Assembly (NCBI RefSeq): GCF_944387805.1
Contig: NZ_CALXGI010000002.1
Coordinates: forward strand, 1 to 64,000
Direction of reading: 5' to 3'
DNA from: an uncultured Pseudoflavonifractor sp.
GTDB lineage: Bacteria > Bacillota > Clostridia > Oscillospirales > Oscillospiraceae
DNA length: 64,000 nucleotides
Of the stretch, positions 19,344 to 51,607 are shown one piece after another; positions within the stretch are counted from its first letter, which is position 1; every line of letters starts with the position of its first letter. A program made the translations under genes and the position numbers. The notes under the pieces were generated by a model that saw only the letters and a list, made by a program, of their open reading frames with translations, was not told where the DNA came from and searched no databases.

Positions 19344-19622
19344 TTACAGGATGATGCAGATAAGGCCGCCGGAGCCCTCATTGATGATACGGGTCAGGGT
19401 CTCCTGGAGCTTACTCCGGGCATCCTCCGGCATGCGGAGTAGTTTAGTATGAAGGTCCTCACTGACCAGTTCGTGGAACGATTTCCCAAATATATTGGAC
19501 TGCCAGATAGCGCTGGTATCTCCCTCAAACTCCTGAAGCAGGAAATTGACCATCTCTTCCGACTGCTTCTCGTTGCCTACAATGGGAGAGACTTCGGTCT
19601 CGATATCGGCTCGGATCATATG
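19344..19622 (-). CDS. spoIVA: spoIVA, 3' segment (C-terminal 91 codons, separated from the rest)
   Basis: Read on the minus strand from the CATAT core at 19618-19622, the frame continues MIRADIETEVSPIVG and EKQSEEMVNFLLQEFEG, then NIFGKSFHELV, MPEDARSKLQETLTRI, and ends INEGSGGLICIIL, the SpoIVA C-terminus. This end packs on the forespore membrane and contacts SpoVM. The Gly that corresponds to G486 in B. subtilis, implicated genetically in SpoVM interaction, is kept. It has no start of its own. The other 401 codons lie 30.7 kb away at 50316-51518, in the same phase. The intact sequence of both parts argues against long decay. Confidence 0.95.
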   Translation of the reverse strand, partial: HMIRADIETEVSPIVGNEKQSEEMVNFLLQEFEGDTSAIWQSNIFGKSFHELVSEDLHTKLLRMPEDARSKLQETLTRIINEGSGGLICIIL

Positions 19623-21271
19623 TATTGCCTGGTACAAACAGAAGTCCGTCCGCGCCCTCTCCGGATGGTAAACTGCTCTTCCTCAGAGATTGCTTTCAGA
19701 TAGACGGAAACATGAATCTCGTTTTTCTTATTCCCTTCCTGGGGGTGTACTTCAATATGGTCTAAAAGCGTATCGATCACCCCGATAGAAAAACCATTGG
19801 TGAAATCTAATTCCTTCGTAATGGCCTGCCGCAGCACATCAATGGATTGCAGCATCTCCCGATTCTTTGACTGCTCCTGCTCCAGCTCGTCGAGGCGAAG
19901 GCGCAGCCTGTCAATTTCCTCGTTGAAACGGCTGTTGCGCTGGGTAAACTCCTCATCGGAAATATGTCCCCCGACACTCAGGTCAAGGAGCTTATCCTTT
20001 CTCTTTAGGATTCCCTCGATATTGACCTTGCATTTGGCAATGTCCTCTTCGGTCTTGCTCCCGTTTCCAATGGAAGTATAAAGCTGAATTAAGTCATGAA
20101 TGACATCTGTCTTGTTGAGCGACAGCTCTTCCAGCACCTGACGCATGATAGTGTCTAACTCAGAAGTATAGAGGACAGGGGCCGAGCACCCTTCCCTCCC
20201 CTTTCGGCTGTACTCCTGGCACTGCCATATCTCCTTGTTTCCGCTCTTATACCGGTAGAGAGAACGGTAGTACGGCAGCTTGTGAATGCCGCAGATAATC
20301 TTTCCGCTGTACGGGTAGCGGTTTTGATAGCCTGTCTTGTCCTCTGCGCTCTGCTTGACAGATCGCTTTTCCAGAATCCAATTGGCCTTGTCCCACAATT
20401 CCTCTGAAACAATGGCAGGAACGACCTGCCCGGTTTCATCTTTATACATGACCCAGTCCTCCGGGTCGAACACTTTCACATCTTTTGTGCGGTAGTCCAG
20501 CTTGCTGGTCTTTCTGCCGCAGTAATACCCCTTATATTTGGGGTTTGACAGGATTCCCCGAATCGTGCTGAAAGAGAAGTCGTTGCCCCGGGTGTTTTTA
20601 TACCCCATGCTGGAGAGGTGCTGCGCAATCCCGCGGATCCCAAGCCGCTCATTGGCGTAGAGATTAAAAATCGTGCGGACAACCGCAGCCTCTTCCTCAT
20701 TGATGACCAGGCGGCCGTCCTTCTTTTCATAGCCCCAGATTTTATTGTTCCCCAGCACAACGCCATTTTCAATGGCGCGCTTAAAGCCGAATTTCACACG
20801 CTCCGATATTTTCCGCACCTCATCCTGGGCGATGCTGGACATAAGGGTTAACCGGAGCTCCGCATCAGGCATAAGGGTATTGATGTTATCCGATTCAAAC
20901 AGGACCCCAACGCCATAGCGCAGCAGATCCTGCGTGTATTTGATACTGTCCAGGGTGTTGCGTGAAAAACGGGAAATTTCTTTTGTTAAAATGAAATCAA
21001 AGTGGCCTGCCTCCGCGTCCTGTACCATCCGAAGAAAGTTTTCCCGCTTTCCGACCGTTGTACCGCTGATGCCCTCGTCAACGTAGCCCTCTACAAACAC
21101 CCACTGGGGATTGCGCTGGATATACTCCGTATAATAGCGAACCTGAGCCGCCAGAGAATGAAGCTGCTCATCCTTGTCTGTAGATACGCGGGCATAGTAG
21201 GTCACTCTCAGAGGAAGATCATAAATACTTTTTCCTGCGTTGAGCGCAGCACGAATATCATATAAGTCCAA
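19616..21271 (-). CDS. Large serine recombinase at the spoIVA junction
   Basis: The TTG at 21271, after AAAGGAGGG, gives 551 residues. The upstream ATG at 21304 overlaps the promoter -10 and is rejected. Domains: resolvase catalytic domain with Ser30 in YYARVSTDKDEQ; Recombinase domain (about 165-280); zinc ribbon with Cys pairs in IICGIHKLPYY and GREGCSAPVLY; a coiled coil; and a basic tail. It should cut and join attB/attP. Its last codons CAA TAC ATA TGA run across the spoIVA junction, so the stop is supplied by the target gene. The position matches spoIVCA in skin and sprA in SPbeta. Excision would need a directionality factor. Confidence 0.93.
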   Translation of the reverse strand: MDLYDIRAALNAGKSIYDLPLRVTYYARVSTDKDEQLHSLAAQVRYYTEYIQRNPQWVFVEGYVDEGISGTTVGKRENFLRMVQDAEAGHFDFILTKEISRFSRNTLDSIKYTQDLLRYGVGVLFESDNINTLMPDAELRLTLMSSIAQDEVRKISERVKFGFKRAIENGVVLGNNKIWGYEKKDGRLVINEEEAAVVRTIFNLYANERLGIRGIAQHLSSMGYKNTRGNDFSFSTIRGILSNPKYKGYYCGRKTSKLDYRTKDVKVFDPEDWVMYKDETGQVVPAIVSEELWDKANWILEKRSVKQSAEDKTGYQNRYPYSGKIICGIHKLPYYRSLYRYKSGNKEIWQCQEYSRKGREGCSAPVLYTSELDTIMRQVLEELSLNKTDVIHDLIQLYTSIGNGSKTEEDIAKCKVNIEGILKRKDKLLDLSVGGHISDEEFTQRNSRFNEEIDRLRLRLDELEQEQSKNREMLQSIDVLRQAITKELDFTNGFSIGVIDTLLDHIEVHPQEGNKKNEIHVSVYLKAISEEEQFTIRRGRGRTSVCTRQYI

Positions 21272-21302
21272 TGAACGCCCTCCTTTAACTTCTGTTTGTT
21301 CC

Positions 21303-21331
21303 ATTATAAAATCAATTTATGCGGTAGTCAA
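21303..21331 (-). promoter_or_regulatory. SigA-type promoter of the serine recombinase
   Basis: On the minus strand TTGACT (21326-21331), 17 bases, then a perfect TATAAT (21303-21308). Transcription would begin near 21296, before the AAAGGAGGG/TTG start. No SigE-like sequence is seen here, so the recombinase may be made in growing cells. Confidence 0.75.
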
Positions 21332-21604: not shown

Positions 21605-21823
21605 TTAGGCCATAGCGGGTTTCCTTGCCTCAATATAGAGGTCAATGTCCTCCACAATATAATTGGCTCCCGTGGTGTGCAGGGCTTCAAAGCAGGAATA
21701 CACATAGTCCCATACACGGTAACGGGTAAAGAGTTCCGCCACCTGCTTGCCCGTCAAATGCTTGGCGTTTTTATAGGTCTCCACGCAATAAATAAGGAAG
21801 TCTCCTTGCCTGCTCATATTCAT
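21605..21823 (-). CDS. DUF3791-family protein
   Basis: This 72-residue protein reads FLIYCVETYKNAKHLTGKQVAELFTRY and then YEALHTTG-like FEALHTTGANYIVEDIDLYI, the pattern I associate with DUF3791. Members are commonly beside DUF3990 proteins and are thought to be antitoxin-like partners. Its start overlaps the previous gene by four bases. It is the last gene of a four-gene operon closed by a terminator. Confidence 0.78.
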   Translation of the reverse strand: MNMSRQGDFLIYCVETYKNAKHLTGKQVAELFTRYRVWDYVYSCFEALHTTGANYIVEDIDLYIEARKPAMA

Positions 21824-22062
21824 ACCTCCTCCGGTATCTCAAAGTTCCCTGTCTTTTTTTCTTCGTCATACATGTTAAATAAGGTAAGCGGGCTGAAATG
21901 CCACAATTTGGTGTCCTCCTGCTCCAGCAAAGAATATACCTTGGATTCATAAAATTCTCTGGACGCAGCCACTTCATCCATGGGGTAGTTCTCACAAATC
22001 AACTGAACAACCTGGGGAACCAATAAAGTTAAAATTGCTTCAAACTTTTTATCCGCCATCAA
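21820..22062 (-). CDS. Small protein of the DUF3990/DUF3791 operon
   Basis: This 80-residue acidic, helical protein ([42 protein letters not shown], read in parts) overlaps both neighbours by four bases. Proteins of this sort often occur between DUF3990 and DUF3791 genes and share the pattern ENYxMDExxAxxxFYxSxVYxxL. An antitoxin or adaptor role is inferred from position only. Confidence 0.7.
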
Positions 22063-22550
22063 AATTCCTCCTCTGGTACTGTACCGACAAACCGCAGATA
22101 GGACAGCGCTTTTTCCGTTGTCAACACCAACTGATTATATAGCTTCTTGATTTTGAGCTGTTCCAGGGTCTGTTCCTTGGTTAACACGCCAGCGGTATAG
22201 AGGGTAAATGTGCGGTATACATCATCATTGGCAACTGGCCCAAAGATAAAATCATAGGCTTCACCTTCATAATTGCCAGATCGGTTATCCGATACAAAAT
22301 CCAGCCATGCTTCTCCCGGCTCATCAAAACGCAGGACAGAGCACTCTGAAAAAGCGATATTCTCGTCAATCTCATAAATGCTGACTTCCCTTTGGCCGTC
22401 TTTCCGGCGCTTCGCCACCTTATCCGCAAAGCTGATTGCCTGAGCCTTATTGGTTGTGGTATAAAAGCCAAATCCAAAATCCAAAAATCGATTTTGCTGG
22501 ATCAGCTTGGGTTCCGATACAACCAGATTGCTGCCATGATATAAAATCAT
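22059..22550 (-). CDS. DUF3990 protein, putative ADP-ribosyltransferase-like toxin
   Basis: This 163-residue protein begins [16 protein letters not shown] and has [22 protein letters not shown], the conserved opening of DUF3990. Its His-Gly, Tyr-Thr-Thr and later acidic residues resemble the NAD-binding core of ADP-ribosyltransferases. [17 protein letters not shown] is the second block. The likely role is an intracellular toxin that modifies a host target with NAD, held by the small partner proteins. Activity is inferred from fold likeness. Coupled to genes on both sides. Confidence 0.78.
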
Positions 22551-22858
22551 AATTGTCCCTCCAATGCTTTCTCTGCAATCGCACGTTCCTCCCGCAAAGA
22601 CCGGATCATCGTTTCGATATGCCTTCGTTTTTCCACCTGCTCCCGCACTGTCTCCACATCTTTTTGCGGAATGTACTTGGAAATTACCCGTTTCCCATCA
22701 CGGTACTTCAGATAAAAGTAGGTGGACTGCCCGGCCTTTTTTTCAGAAATGGTGCCTTTGGGGAGTGTTTCCAATTCCTCCTGGTATTTTGCCAGCATAC
22801 GGTCAATGCGTTCTCTCTCCTGCAAGATAGTGCTCAAAATCAAATTCATCCTCTTCAC
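22547..22858 (-). CDS. Basic coiled-coil protein heading the TA-like operon
   Basis: Up to 103 residues; either GTG 22858 or the ATG at 22849 could be the start. The N-terminus is helical ([20 protein letters not shown]), the middle has [19 protein letters not shown], and the end is a charged helix. That Y-F-Y-L-K-Y-R-x-G-K-x-x-S-K-Y pattern is seen in small proteins of mobile elements, but I have no function for it. It lies just after an operator-flanked promoter and may be the regulator of the operon. Confidence 0.68.
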
Positions 22859-23384: not shown

Positions 23385-24278
23385 TCATGGGGAGGACTGT
23401 CCCTTTGACAGATACCGGTAGAGGGTGGCCTTCTTGATGCCGGTCAGCTCCTCAATCTCCGTCACCGTGTGCTGTCCTGTCTCATAGAGCTTCAAGGCCT
23501 GCCGGAGCTTGCGCTGGTCGCAGCGGGGCCGCCCGCCCTTTCTGCCGCGGGCCCTGGCCGCCCGGAGGCCCTCCCGGGTTCTCTCCGCTATCACGTCCCT
23601 CTCGAACTGGGCCAGAGCCGACATCAGGGTGAAGAGCAGCCTGCCGGTGGGGGTGCCCGTATCGATCTGCTCCTTCAGGCTCACCAGCTGCACCTCCTTT
23701 TTCTCCATCAGCTCCACCAGCTCCATCAGGTCCTTGGTGCTCCTGCCCAGGCGGGACAGGGACTCCACGATAACGGTATCACCCGGCGCCAGGTGGGAGA
23801 GCATCCTGTTCAGCTCCGGCCTGTCCCGCCTGGCGCCGGTCATCTTCTCCTGAAACACAATCTCCGCCCCCTGCTGGCGGAGCATATCCAACTGCCGCTC
23901 CAGATTCTGGTCGGCAGTGGACACCCTGGCATATCCGATCTTCTGATGCTTCACCGCTTTATCACCTCCGGTTTCATAAACGCATGGCAAATGAGAACTG
24001 GATTTTGAGACGGGTTTTGGGACCGAAACGGCGGGGAAAAGGGGCGCTTCTGCGCCTCTCCCGCCGCCGTTCCAGAAACGAAGGTTATTGCGGCGGGCCT
24101 GTCCCAGCCAGCGTACCGCCTCCTGTGGGGATGAAAACTCCTCTGTCCATGCGTGTCCGGTGGAATTGTCCACCGCAACCCAGACCTTCCCCTCATGGGC
24201 GAGGAACAGCCCTCTGGGCCTGCGGGTTTGGATCACCCCGCGCAGCCGGGCCGCATGGACCAGCGCTGTCACATGCAC
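23385..24278 (-). CDS. Tn3/Hin-like resolvase, possibly with a fused N-terminal domain
   Basis: The frame is open for 297 codons. The resolvase proper begins at GTG 23954, behind GGAGGTG: 190 residues with KIGYARVSTADQNLERQ (Ser12), IVESLSRLGRSTKDL, GRLLFTLMSALAQFERDVI and a C-terminal helix-turn-helix (TVTEIEELTGIKKATLYRYL). This is the standard small serine resolvase/invertase. The upstream 108 codons (VTALVHAARLRGVIQTRRPRG, then KVWVAVDNSTGHAWTEEF) form a separate small domain with no stop before the resolvase. That part overlaps the amidotransferase gene by 10 bases. Either one fused protein or two nested products is possible. Confidence 0.82.
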   Translation of the reverse strand: MHVTALVHAARLRGVIQTRRPRGLFLAHEGKVWVAVDNSTGHAWTEEFSSPQEAVRWLGQARRNNLRFWNGGGRGAEAPLFPAVSVPKPVSKSSSHLPCVYETGGDKAVKHQKIGYARVSTADQNLERQLDMLRQQGAEIVFQEKMTGARRDRPELNRMLSHLAPGDTVIVESLSRLGRSTKDLMELVELMEKKEVQLVSLKEQIDTGTPTGRLLFTLMSALAQFERDVIAERTREGLRAARARGRKGGRPRCDQRKLRQALKLYETGQHTVTEIEELTGIKKATLYRYLSKGQSSP

Positions 24279-27855: not shown

Positions 27856-30624
27856 TCAGAACTCTGGGCTGAAGATGGTCGGGACCATATCCCGGCCAAA
27901 GTAAAGGTGCACGCCGGCCTCTTCGCTGTACGCCAGATAGACTGACCCGGTCTCGCTGGTCGCCGCCATTCCGGCCGGGTTGTCCAGCCGCTCTACGGAC
28001 ATGCTGACATTGGTCGTCTCCCCGTTGCGGGTGATGGCCACGTCCCGGAGAACCAAGCTGCCTCCGGTGTCAATCCAGGCAGAGGGACCTATTTCCACGT
28101 CGATGCTCTGGGTCTGGCCGTAGTTCCAGACTGTGTAGCTCCCGGCAGTTTCCAGCAGGAGATCCCCGGACAGCTGAACCCCGGTGCAGTCCCAGCCCGC
28201 TCCCGTCCAGTACAGGGTCAGCTCCGCCGTCATGGCGCTGGTGTCATATAGATCCGGGTCAGCGGAGCGAATCTCCCCCACCAACGCATGGACGGTCATT
28301 GGGTCGGCATCGTCTGCCTGTGTTGTGATGCTCTCCCCGTTTCCCGTGCCGACAGCTTCCGGGAGGGCCTGGCTGAGGGCGGCCAGGATGTCCTCCTGGG
28401 TAATTTGAGGCGGGAGATCCTCCCCGCCGCTGGAGTCGGAGGCGTCTGTCGTGCCGGGGTCATTCTCATGTGCGGAGAGGTAGCGGCTGGCGTCAATCCC
28501 CAGGGTAATGGCCCCGTCAAAAATACCGGCCAAATCCGTCCCATCCGGACATATAGCCTGAAATTCCTCTGTCCCTGTCTGGTCCAGAGTTCCGTCATTC
28601 CAATATACCTGGTAGTCCTCGCCCAGGTAGCGGTCAAAGCCGCTCACATCACTGTCCGGACTGGCGGAAATGGCCAGCTCCGGCGTCTGAGAAGCAACCG
28701 GTTCTTCAGGGACAGGCTCAGGCGAGGGATATGCCGTCTCCAGAGCCTCGTCCTCAACCGCCTCTGTTTCCACTGCCGCAGAAGGGATATCCCCGGCGGC
28801 GCCGGGATTAGCGCCTTCCGCCACGCCCCGCAGGATCAGCTGAGCCGCAACGGTCAGAACCGCTGCCGCCAGCAGCGCAATCAGAGCGGCGGGCACGCCC
28901 TTTTTGGGCTGGGGCAGGTCCTTCGTCAGCACGGGATGGACCACGGCTCCGTCGATGGTCAGCTCCTTCCACGGCTGATAGAGGCCGGTATACAGCATCA
29001 GGAAGACAATGCTCGCCGCGATGCAGCAGATCCCGGCTGGGAGGCCGAGATGCAGGATAAACAGCGCAGACAGGGCGAGAAACAGAAAGAGCAGCCCCGC
29101 CGCCGTGTATATCTTGGGGCGTCGGCCTCTCCGGTATATCCGTGCCTTTTCAATATTTTTGGGAGTGCAGGCGTTAAGCGCGGTGATGTATTGTTCGGAA
29201 GACGAGGTCCGCGCCCGCTCTTTGATACGGTTCAGCGTCTCCGCCACGGCGGCGGGATCTGTGATATCCGTCGCCAGATAGAGCTGATCAAAGGCTTTGC
29301 TGTCCTCCTCCGACCAGATCTCCTCTATTCGCTTCTGGAGCTTTTGGAAAAAGGGTTCTTTTGCCTCATCCGGGGCGTCATACTCCTGGATGGCCCGCTT
29401 TCTGTCGTTGCAGGCGGCCTCGTCCGCCTGCTCATACCCGGCGCAGATAGCGTCCATCTCTTCCTCCCAGATAGCTGAAATCCGCTGGCGCAGCTTCTCC
29501 AGATAGGGGGCCTTGTTCTTCTCCAAGGCGTCGTACCTCTCCACCGCCCGTACCATGGCGAGGCATGCCTCCCTGCCAGCTGTCTCATATCCACCGCACA
29601 GACGCGCAAGGCAGTCGTTCTCCAGGCGGTCCAGGGTGGCGCTGACGGGGATGCCGTACTCCTGCATGAGCTTGCGGATTCTCCCCTTGGCCCTCTGGGC
29701 GGCCTCCTCCGTCTCCCGGTCTTTCTCCGTATACTCCCGTTCCAAAATCGCCTCATATGTATCCGAGAGGTCTACACGGAAGCGCTGGGCGATGGCGCTG
29801 ACGGCCGCTCTTTCTTTTGGAAAATTCACGAAGATATACTTGAGCAGTTCGACATTCCACGGCCACAGCTGCACCGCCTGCACCAGAAGCTCCACCCGCT
29901 TGTCGGGCAACTTTTTGGCATTTTCCAGCAGCGCTTCCGACCGATCAGGGTCGAAGCCGCTGCGGATACAGCCCGGCCGGCGTTCGTTGACCAGAACGAT
30001 ATGCGCGTCAAAAAAGGAGAGGAGCGCCTCTGAGAGCCCATCGAACAGGATTTCTCTCGTCTCTGCCCTCCCATAAAGCGCACGCTTTTCGCCAGAGGCC
30101 GTGATGCTCGATCCGGCGTTTCCCACCGCATTGACCGCACTGTGCGCCATTCCGGAGAGCAGGTTCATGCCGCCGGCCATGGCCGCGCCCTTCACAGCGC
30201 CGGAAAAGCCAAATCCGCCTCCCTGCCAGCGGCCCCGCCCGGCTTTCCGCGCCGCGCGGTACTCCTCCTCTGCCTCTTTCTTGCCCTCTATGGCGTTTAC
30301 CTTCCCAGAGACGGAGCGCAGCGCGGCCTCCGCCTCCGAAAAGTCGGCACAGCACTGCCAGTACACATCCCCGCTCACGTCATAGATTCCGTACTGAGCC
30401 AGAGACTCGTAGAGAGGCCGGGACACTGCATCCTGGATAAGTTTCCTGGCGACGTTCAGGTACCCCTGCAAGACATTTTCAATCTTTCCGCAGCTGTCAT
30501 ACCATGCATTAAACCGCTGCTGCATCTCTTGTTCCGCCTGCCAGCCGGCGTATTGGAGGTCAAAAAAGCGCTCGGACGGGTCATCGAACGCCACTCGCTT
30601 CCCCAATAACACATACTCAACCAT
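27856..30624 (-). CDS. Large uncharacterised membrane protein (922 aa)
   Basis: The first 500 residues are soluble and helical, with a Gly/Ala patch at about 135-175. An internal repeat of about 50 residues follows (about 347-395 and 396-441; each with YDA, K-x-P-[YF]-x-x-K-L-x-x-R-I-x-x-I-W-x-E-E). Three membrane helices lie at about 505-526, 528-548 and 577-598. A Pro/Glu/Ala linker leads to a C-terminal domain of about 280 residues that looks beta-rich and extracellular. It has no signal peptide. I recognise no family. The size and the two-sided layout suggest signalling or envelope sensing. It is divergent from an XRE regulator with shared operators. Confidence 0.75.
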   Translation of the reverse strand: MVEYVLLGKRVAFDDPSERFFDLQYAGWQAEQEMQQRFNAWYDSCGKIENVLQGYLNVARKLIQDAVSRPLYESLAQYGIYDVSGDVYWQCCADFSEAEAALRSVSGKVNAIEGKKEAEEEYRAARKAGRGRWQGGGFGFSGAVKGAAMAGGMNLLSGMAHSAVNAVGNAGSSITASGEKRALYGRAETREILFDGLSEALLSFFDAHIVLVNERRPGCIRSGFDPDRSEALLENAKKLPDKRVELLVQAVQLWPWNVELLKYIFVNFPKERAAVSAIAQRFRVDLSDTYEAILEREYTEKDRETEEAAQRAKGRIRKLMQEYGIPVSATLDRLENDCLARLCGGYETAGREACLAMVRAVERYDALEKNKAPYLEKLRQRISAIWEEEMDAICAGYEQADEAACNDRKRAIQEYDAPDEAKEPFFQKLQKRIEEIWSEEDSKAFDQLYLATDITDPAAVAETLNRIKERARTSSSEQYITALNACTPKNIEKARIYRRGRRPKIYTAAGLLFLFLALSALFILHLGLPAGICCIAASIVFLMLYTGLYQPWKELTIDGAVVHPVLTKDLPQPKKGVPAALIALLAAAVLTVAAQLILRGVAEGANPGAAGDIPSAAVETEAVEDEALETAYPSPEPVPEEPVASQTPELAISASPDSDVSGFDRYLGEDYQVYWNDGTLDQTGTEEFQAICPDGTDLAGIFDGAITLGIDASRYLSAHENDPGTTDASDSSGGEDLPPQITQEDILAALSQALPEAVGTGNGESITTQADDADPMTVHALVGEIRSADPDLYDTSAMTAELTLYWTGAGWDCTGVQLSGDLLLETAGSYTVWNYGQTQSIDVEIGPSAWIDTGGSLVLRDVAITRNGETTNVSMSVERLDNPAGMAATSETGSVYLAYSEEAGVHLYFGRDMVPTIFSPEF

Positions 30625-50120: not shown

Positions 50121-51518
50121 CTAATAGGAGTTTGTCATCACTATGAGCTTTTTTAAATTGCCTCGCTTGGCGATCGATTTTCTTTGTAAAAGGAGACGGT
50201 TCCCTTTGGGGAATCGTCTCCTTTTCACATTCAGATCAGCACCGCCCACTCCACTTGTAACATCTTCCCGTTTTGTGGACTTTGCAGTTCTAAACTTCTT
50301 TTTGTTCCATATAATATGGATACTTGGGGCGCTGGCTTTCAGGCGCACGCCGTACCGTCCTCCCTGCCTGACAATCTCCGGCTCCTCCAGTTTGAGTTCA
50401 TCTGTACCAGGCACCACAATGCCGTACCCGGTCTCTTTCACCTCACGAAGGGCGTCCGCTACCTTATCGTACTCCCGCTTGACTCCGGACAGCTCGGTAA
50501 GGAGTCCCATCAGGTCTCCGTCATCATGGATGGTGAAACCAGACTGCTGGGAGATGGTGTCATAGAAAAGCCCTCTGGGCAGCTCCAGGGAAGCCGAGGC
50601 AAGGCCAGTGCCCAGGCTGATGGTATTGACCTTGGCAGAGGACACATTCTCGCACTGACCAATCGCAGAGACTGCCCGCTCCACATCTCGAATCCTCCGC
50701 ATTCCCTCTGCCGCTGAGCGAATCGCAGTGTACAGCCCACTCTTGATGGGGTGTCCATAGGGCAGTGCATCTACCCAAGATGGCAGGAACAGGTCCAACT
50801 CCTTCACCGGGAACTCATAGAGTACACCTTTGATGATGCTGGTAACTGCGTTCTCGTCCAGTTCCAGACAGTTGACGCAGATACAGGTGACATCGTACCG
50901 GGATGACAGATCAGCCTGGATTGCCTTGGCCCGCTCCGAGCCGGGTTCCGCCGAGTTGAGTACCACCAGGAAGGGCTTCCCAAGCTCCTTCAGTTCGGTA
51001 ATCACTCTCTCCTCCGCCTCCAGATAGTCTTCTCTGGGGATATCGGTGATGGTGCCATCGGTGGTGACTACAATGCCGATAGTGGAGTGTTCGGCGATGA
51101 CCTTCCGGGTGCCAATCTCGGCGGCCTCAGACATAGGGATCTCGTGGTCAAACCAGGGAGTGGTCACCATGCGCGGGGATGCGTCCTCCAGCGACCCTAC
51201 CGCGCCGGGCACCATATACCCCACGCAGTCAATCAGCCGCACGGAGAAGGCTGCCCCGTCCTCCATGGCAATTTCCACCGCCTCCTCAGGGACGAACTTG
51301 GGCTCTGCCGTCATAATGGTCCGGCCTGAGCCGCTCTGAGGCAGCTCATCTCTTGCACGCTCCCGTCGGTAGACATTCTCAATGTTGGGGATGACCAAGG
51401 TCTCCATAAAACGTTTGATAAAGGTGGATTTTCCCGTCCTGACCGGCCCCACCACGCCGATATAGATATCGCCCTCCGTGCGCAGCGCAATATCCTCATA
51501 AATCTTACGGTGTTCCAC
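50121..51518 (-). CDS. spoIVA: spoIVA, 5' segment (401 codons plus element-encoded tail)
   Basis: GTG 51518 follows AAGGAGG at seven bases. Residues 1-401 are SpoIVA: GVVGPVRTGKSTFIKRFME with Walker A Lys30 (as in B. subtilis), ELPQSGSGRTIMTAEPKFVPEEA, VRLIDCVGYMVPGA and TTDGTITDIPREDYLEAEERV, then RYGVRLKASAPSIH. From 50315 the frame enters the element and adds about 64 foreign, basic residues (IIWNKKKFRTAKS...). SpoIVA is the ATPase that polymerises into the basement layer of the spore coat. The missing 91 codons lie at 19344-19622. The present product lacks the membrane/SpoVM-contact end. Confidence 0.95.
   Translation of the reverse strand: MEHRKIYEDIALRTEGDIYIGVVGPVRTGKSTFIKRFMETLVIPNIENVYRRERARDELPQSGSGRTIMTAEPKFVPEEAVEIAMEDGAAFSVRLIDCVGYMVPGAVGSLEDASPRMVTTPWFDHEIPMSEAAEIGTRKVIAEHSTIGIVVTTDGTITDIPREDYLEAEERVITELKELGKPFLVVLNSAEPGSERAKAIQADLSSRYDVTCICVNCLELDENAVTSIIKGVLYEFPVKELDLFLPSWVDALPYGHPIKSGLYTAIRSAAEGMRRIRDVERAVSAIGQCENVSSAKVNTISLGTGLASASLELPRGLFYDTISQQSGFTIHDDGDLMGLLTELSGVKREYDKVADALREVKETGYGIVVPGTDELKLEEPEIVRQGGRYGVRLKASAPSIHIIWNKKKFRTAKSTKREDVTSGVGGADLNVKRRRFPKGNRLLLQRKSIAKRGNLKKLIVMTNSY
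50186..50226. terminator. Terminator just inside the element next to spoIVA
   Basis: AAAAGGAGACG (about 50188-50198) and CGTCTCCTTTT form an 11-bp stem with inner pairing. Both strands end in T-runs. It should stop spoIVA transcription about 90-130 bases after the junction when the element is present. Confidence 0.82.
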
Positions 51519-51576
51519 TTCAACTCCTCCTTGCGGACGATTCAGGCATGGGCGAGCAAGCCTGGCTTTCCCTATA

Positions 51577-51607
51577 TAGGTATGGGGATAAGCCATAGTT
51601 TATGACA
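51577..51607 (-). promoter_or_regulatory. SigE-like promoter of spoIVA
   Basis: On the minus strand GTCATAAA (51600-51607), 14 bases, CATACCTAT (51577-51585). This fits the mother-cell SigE consensus and lies about 60 bases before the GTG. Confidence 0.78.

Follow-up and report, generated by a model that had tools for sequence, protein, structure and literature searches.

The window, a stretch of 64,000 nucleotides comprising positions 1-64,000 of contig NZ_CALXGI010000002.1 (all coordinates below refer to it), holds the spore-coat gene spoIVA in two parts, split by a mobile element between the residues SAPSIH and MIRADIETEVSP. The 5' part, which encodes the ATPase domain and the greater part of the middle domain (Pfam SpoIVA_ATPase and SpoIVA_middle, TIGR02836), lies at 50317-51596 on the minus strand, and its frame stays open for about 60 codons inside the element. 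The 3' part, running from MIRADIETEVSP as far as the stop codon, lies on the same strand at 19344-19622. The whole intervening element occupies 19622-50317 (30,696 bp). Rejoining the flanks in sequence, as precise removal of the element would do, gives spoIVA in frame, encoding 518 amino acids and reading ...APSIH followed directly by MIRADIETEVSP; an intact homologue, the uninterrupted spoIVA of a genome of the same genus (G160), is 99% identical to this restored SpoIVA.

Elements of this kind are known from several sporulation genes: skin in sigK (Bacillus subtilis and Clostridioides difficile), gin in gerE, SPbeta in spsM, and yin in yabG. Judged by its junctions, the element in the window is a skin-like intervening element, since it interrupts a sporulation gene whose frame is restored upon precise removal. 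Like the known examples it carries a serine recombinase, and relatives of that recombinase are located in sigK, the target of skin itself. It differs from them in its target, spoIVA, and perhaps also in the position of attP, which falls within the recombinase gene (see below).

The recombinase gene lies at 19616-21304 on the minus strand and, in the integrated state, encodes 562 amino acids (PHROG 95, integrase). Its Resolvase catalytic domain, Recombinase domain and zinc ribbon (Pfam Resolvase, Recombinase and Zn_ribbon_recom) all score above cut-offs, and these together with a coiled coil mark it as a large serine recombinase; in a predicted model of one relative (L141), long helices follow the zinc ribbon. 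Just upstream, at 21605-22858 on the minus strand, are small genes encoding DUF3791, DUF3990 and two other proteins, which are 94-99% identical in the related element G306, as against 92% for the recombinase; they are candidate accessory genes, or may encode a directionality factor. The element holds a further small gene of resolvase/invertase type (PHROG 125) at 23385-24278, also on the minus strand, which is partly shared with G306. The cargo at 24269-47614 does not look like phage. It includes a glutamine-amidotransferase-like gene, an amidoligase, RHS-repeat proteins, a GH106-like rhamnosidase with an S-layer domain, a RecQ-like helicase, and a gene for a protein of 922 amino acids (27856-30624) with no family match.

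The recombinase frame at the element junctions

The 562-residue form of the recombinase ends ...CTRQYI, encoded by CAA TAC ATA TGA as read from 19627 to 19616 on the minus strand. The stop codon (TGA, 19618-19616) is spoIVA sequence, just as the preliminary description had proposed; it lies out of frame within the spoIVA codons ATG ATC. A different end is predicted for the excised element. We infer the circle itself from the sequence; its junction would read CAATACATATTATATGG, joined in frame, and the recombinase frame in it would run without an internal stop to 589 residues, QYI being followed by LYGTKRSLELQSPQNGKMLQVEWAVLI. The earlier expectation of about 27 more codons and a stop near 50230 thus holds for the predicted circle, with 27 codons and the stop TGA at 50233-50231. 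The detached 3' end of the gene, consisting of the circle-only tail LYGTKRSLELQSPQNGKMLQVEWAVLI and this stop, lies at 50231-50316 on the minus strand, and relatives conserve its circle frame. What the short form loses is the last 27 residues only, and every recognized domain is retained in the 562 amino acids. In an AlphaFold model of a natural long form the tail has a pLDDT near 30 and is not placed.

The reconstructed attP consists of 22-bp arms around ACAT, with short inverted half-sites around a central dinucleotide, as is usual in large serine recombinases. The left arm, ACTTCTGTTTGTACCAGGCAAT (19624-19645, minus strand), lies inside the recombinase coding sequence, and the right arm, ATTATATGGAACAAAAAGAAGT (50294-50315, minus strand), doubles as the start of the circle-only tail; the two form the inverted repeat in the reconstructed circle. 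The crossover dinucleotide appears to be CA, at 19621-19622 on the recombinase side and at 50317-50318 on the side of the spoIVA 5' part (both minus strand), because the two junctions of element G306 differ just to the right of CA (CAC vs CAT) and the core common to both junctions of G032 is AATACA; the attP inverted repeat is centred on CA as well. The site falls about 29 codons before the true stop of the recombinase gene. On the strength of the conserved circle-frame tails, and of long forms of the enzyme with attP-like inverted repeats (both described below), we place attP within the recombinase gene, whose last 27 codons are carried by integration to the opposite end of the element.

Conservation of the circle-only tail

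The length of the open frame was rejected as evidence for the tail. An open frame of 28 codons is unremarkable in the window (P = 0.14), and of 25 cases examined, no more than 11 have the circle frame as the longest among the three. Evidence comes instead from the same overlap in related elements, where the preliminary description had suggested looking for it. Seven other spoIVA elements (G366, G306, G245, G400, G401, G032 and G143), Flavonifractor and Lawsonibacter among their hosts, have a recombinase at the same place, 54-93% identical, with the same stop; two elements from Bacilli MAGs (L014 and L015) also end in spoIVA. Circle tails could be reconstructed for seven elements, from the opposite ends of six relatives and from the window itself. 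In five of the seven, window included, QY is followed by exactly 28 codons and the stop position is shared; the tail is 24 codons long in G032 and 14 in G143.

Because the attP right arm makes up the first 22-25 bases of the tail, DNA binding could account for conservation there. This leaves room for the view that the overlap is inert: attP would simply happen to fall at the 3' end of the gene, the distal sequence would be kept as attachment-site DNA, and neither C-terminus would matter. The phiC31 integrase tolerates the loss of its last 21 residues (PMC5737554), and tails diverge fast, with 36-43% identity where bodies have 87-92%, both of which suit such a view. Against it, conservation of the circle-frame protein reaches past the arm, into sequence with little nucleotide identity. 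Over the last third of the tail only 9-12 of 27 nucleotides are identical (window vs G306 or G245), and beyond the attP arm the proteins are similar in the circle frame (ELQSPQNGKMLQVEWAVLI, KIISQQRRMTFCVEWFVAL, ELRSEQNGRLFRITLCIIR). Conservation scores for the spoIVA tails are 69 in the circle frame and -22 and 13 in the other two, and column-shuffle permutation of the alignment gives P of about 0.001, for three distinct lineages and with phylogeny and dinucleotides not preserved by the shuffle. As far as these alignments can tell, only the circle frame shows protein conservation of the tail, and more of it than nucleotide similarity would account for.

Elements in sigK, with recombinases about 50% identical to that of the window and sited near the codons VKK-YYTQ, give a second set, in which both ends were reconstructed for eighteen elements. 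Their circle tails share LWxxSGQAxFRDYNRxxL or YNRHLDI, at 18 to 48 codons from the core, and eight elements have a clear copy of this motif, in every case in the circle frame; several other tails are short or have no motif. In two alignable sets of sigK tails, none of 5000 column shuffles was as good as the real alignment. Such strong conservation, combined with a length that varies without loss of frame, again argues against an inert overlap, which we regard as improbable. A relic, G369, has a contiguous junction of recombinase end and attP that resembles the reconstructed ones. Elements at the same site are seen in both orientations, with the recombinase beside either half of the target (L024-L047 in sigK, L099 in spoIVA).

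The conserved end might instead belong to another reading frame, for example the one that enters the element from the 5' part of spoIVA and stays open there. That frame scores 13 against 69 for the circle frame and was rejected as the conserved one, and the sigK tail motif, wherever recognizable, joins the recombinase frame; we give explanations of this type very little credence.

Contiguous long recombinases occur in viral contigs, with hydrophobic, strand-like tails and no recognized spoIVA or sigK half beside the recombinase, and these contigs are likely unintegrated. Four of the viral long forms have a long attP-like inverted repeat whose centre lies 33-37 codons short of the stop. These repeats score 11-16, and the maximum over 60 shuffles of one such sequence was 10; long forms L128, L130, L136 and L145 have no clear inverted repeat. 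The circular junction of the element was not found directly in the viral contigs, nor did the window recombinase, used as a single-sequence query, find a relative among them. Phage and plasmid records contain relatives at 33-41% identity only, and a query made of the recombinase end plus tail had no match in phages. With the conserved circle-frame tails and the contiguous viral forms in hand, the proposal of two C-termini dependent on the state of the element is well supported, and the sequences make a good case that it represents a conserved, family-wide design. Related elements with the same arrangement are present in many gut bacteria.

In other, integrated relatives the junction-crossing frame continues into the target. 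The recombinase frame of L110, L112 and L124 runs in frame into the C-terminal end of SpoIVA, and that of L104-L106, L108, L109, L111, L115 and L119 runs into the final ~24 residues of what seems to be a sporulation sigma factor, making target-fused recombinases of about 630-650 amino acids. A frame that crosses the junction is therefore general, with what follows it depending on the target. Body and tail do not always tell the same history: G366 and G306 have bodies 97% identical and tails 39% identical, and the window and G401 have bodies 71% identical and tails 86% identical. This disagreement suggests that the tail evolves or moves separately; tails may be exchanged through the att sites of co-resident elements, or by homologous recombination.

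State-dependent C-termini and their possible role

An integrase gene that carries its own attP has precedents. A review (PMC6070905, with reference to Tojo 1996 and Magrini 1999) places attP of the Myxococcus phage Mx8 inside int, where integration replaces the 3' end of the gene and alters the integrase without destroying it. The window recombinase shares with Mx8 an attP within the integrase coding sequence and a 3' end that changes after integration, but it belongs to the large serine recombinases and sits in an element that splits a sporulation gene; here the stop comes at once from the target, and in relatives the frame runs on into the target as a fusion. The "suicidal" integrases of archaea (SSV1, pTN3, pT26-2) have att inside the integrase gene, which integration splits, and a review holds genes disrupted in this way by their own att site to be exclusive to archaea (PMC8371274). 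The likeness lies in att being in the gene and in the 3' part being carried to the other end of the element. Unlike the window enzyme with its serine recombinase domains, however, those integrases are tyrosine recombinases, and their catalytic part is separated, while here all recognized domains stay in the 562-residue form. A literature search, with most subscription papers outside its scope, found no report of such an arrangement in serine recombinases or in spoIVA or sigK elements, and no description of an intervening element in spoIVA.

We think it likely that attP lies in the recombinase gene, that the end of the enzyme depends on the state of the element, and that the tail most likely tunes the enzyme for the free state. 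The integrated copy would make only the short enzyme with all its recognized domains, and excision, presumably with a directionality factor, would take place in the mother cell and restore spoIVA, as skin does for sigK. The free circle would make the full-length enzyme, the sole form available from the element at integration, and the tail would most likely favour attP x attB integration or limit the lifetime of the enzyme. The shorter tails of two of the seven spoIVA elements, the short or motif-free tails of several sigK elements, the discordance of body and tail, the low pLDDT of the tail in the modelled long form, and the dispensable end of phiC31 integrase speak against this reading.

Whether the short and long enzymes truly differ in function we put at about even chances. 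The skin recombinase of C. difficile integrates alone and requires CD1234 for excision (PMC5025042). The end of a serine integrase lies close to its coiled coil, a region implicated in how the directionality factor exerts control, and a directionality factor fused at that end promotes excision (PMC5737554). A difference in activity or direction between the two forms, as first suggested for this locus, is plausible on these grounds; given the proximity of the end to the coiled coil on one hand, and the dispensable end of phiC31 integrase on the other, a functional switch is plausible but unproven.

The main alternative to such a switch is that the tail is a degradation tag, making the recombinase of the circle unstable so that an excised element would not re-enter, with the tag removed by integration. 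There is precedent in the integration-dependent immunity of mycobacteriophages, where attP lies inside the repressor gene and integration removes an ssrA-like C-terminal tag (PMC9934374). The present case resembles it in having attP in a mobile element's gene and a C-terminus lost on integration; it differs in that the split gene there is a repressor and the piece removed is an ssrA-like tag. The circle tails are indeed hydrophobic at the end (a fraction of 0.47 in the last 12 residues, vs 0.22 in integrated forms), yet they have no AA ending as ssrA-like tags do, and their alternating, strand-like pattern would suit a folded strand equally. We consider a tag of this sort rather unlikely.

A broader and more speculative version of the tuning proposal would treat an attP in the recombinase's own gene as a sensor of state: the long enzyme would integrate, the short or target-fused enzyme would excise, the swapped C-terminus would set direction or lifetime, and tails would be traded through att sites, all this being widespread in spore-forming gut bacteria and their phages. 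We hold this version to be possible, though we would not bet on it.

Large serine recombinases are tools for genome engineering, and what determines their direction is a live question. A C-terminus that differs between states in the family of the window recombinase offers a natural comparison for the study of directionality, and a recombinase of this family, if taken from an integrated copy, would come without its natural tail. With the element described here, spoIVA joins the list of sporulation genes split by removable elements.
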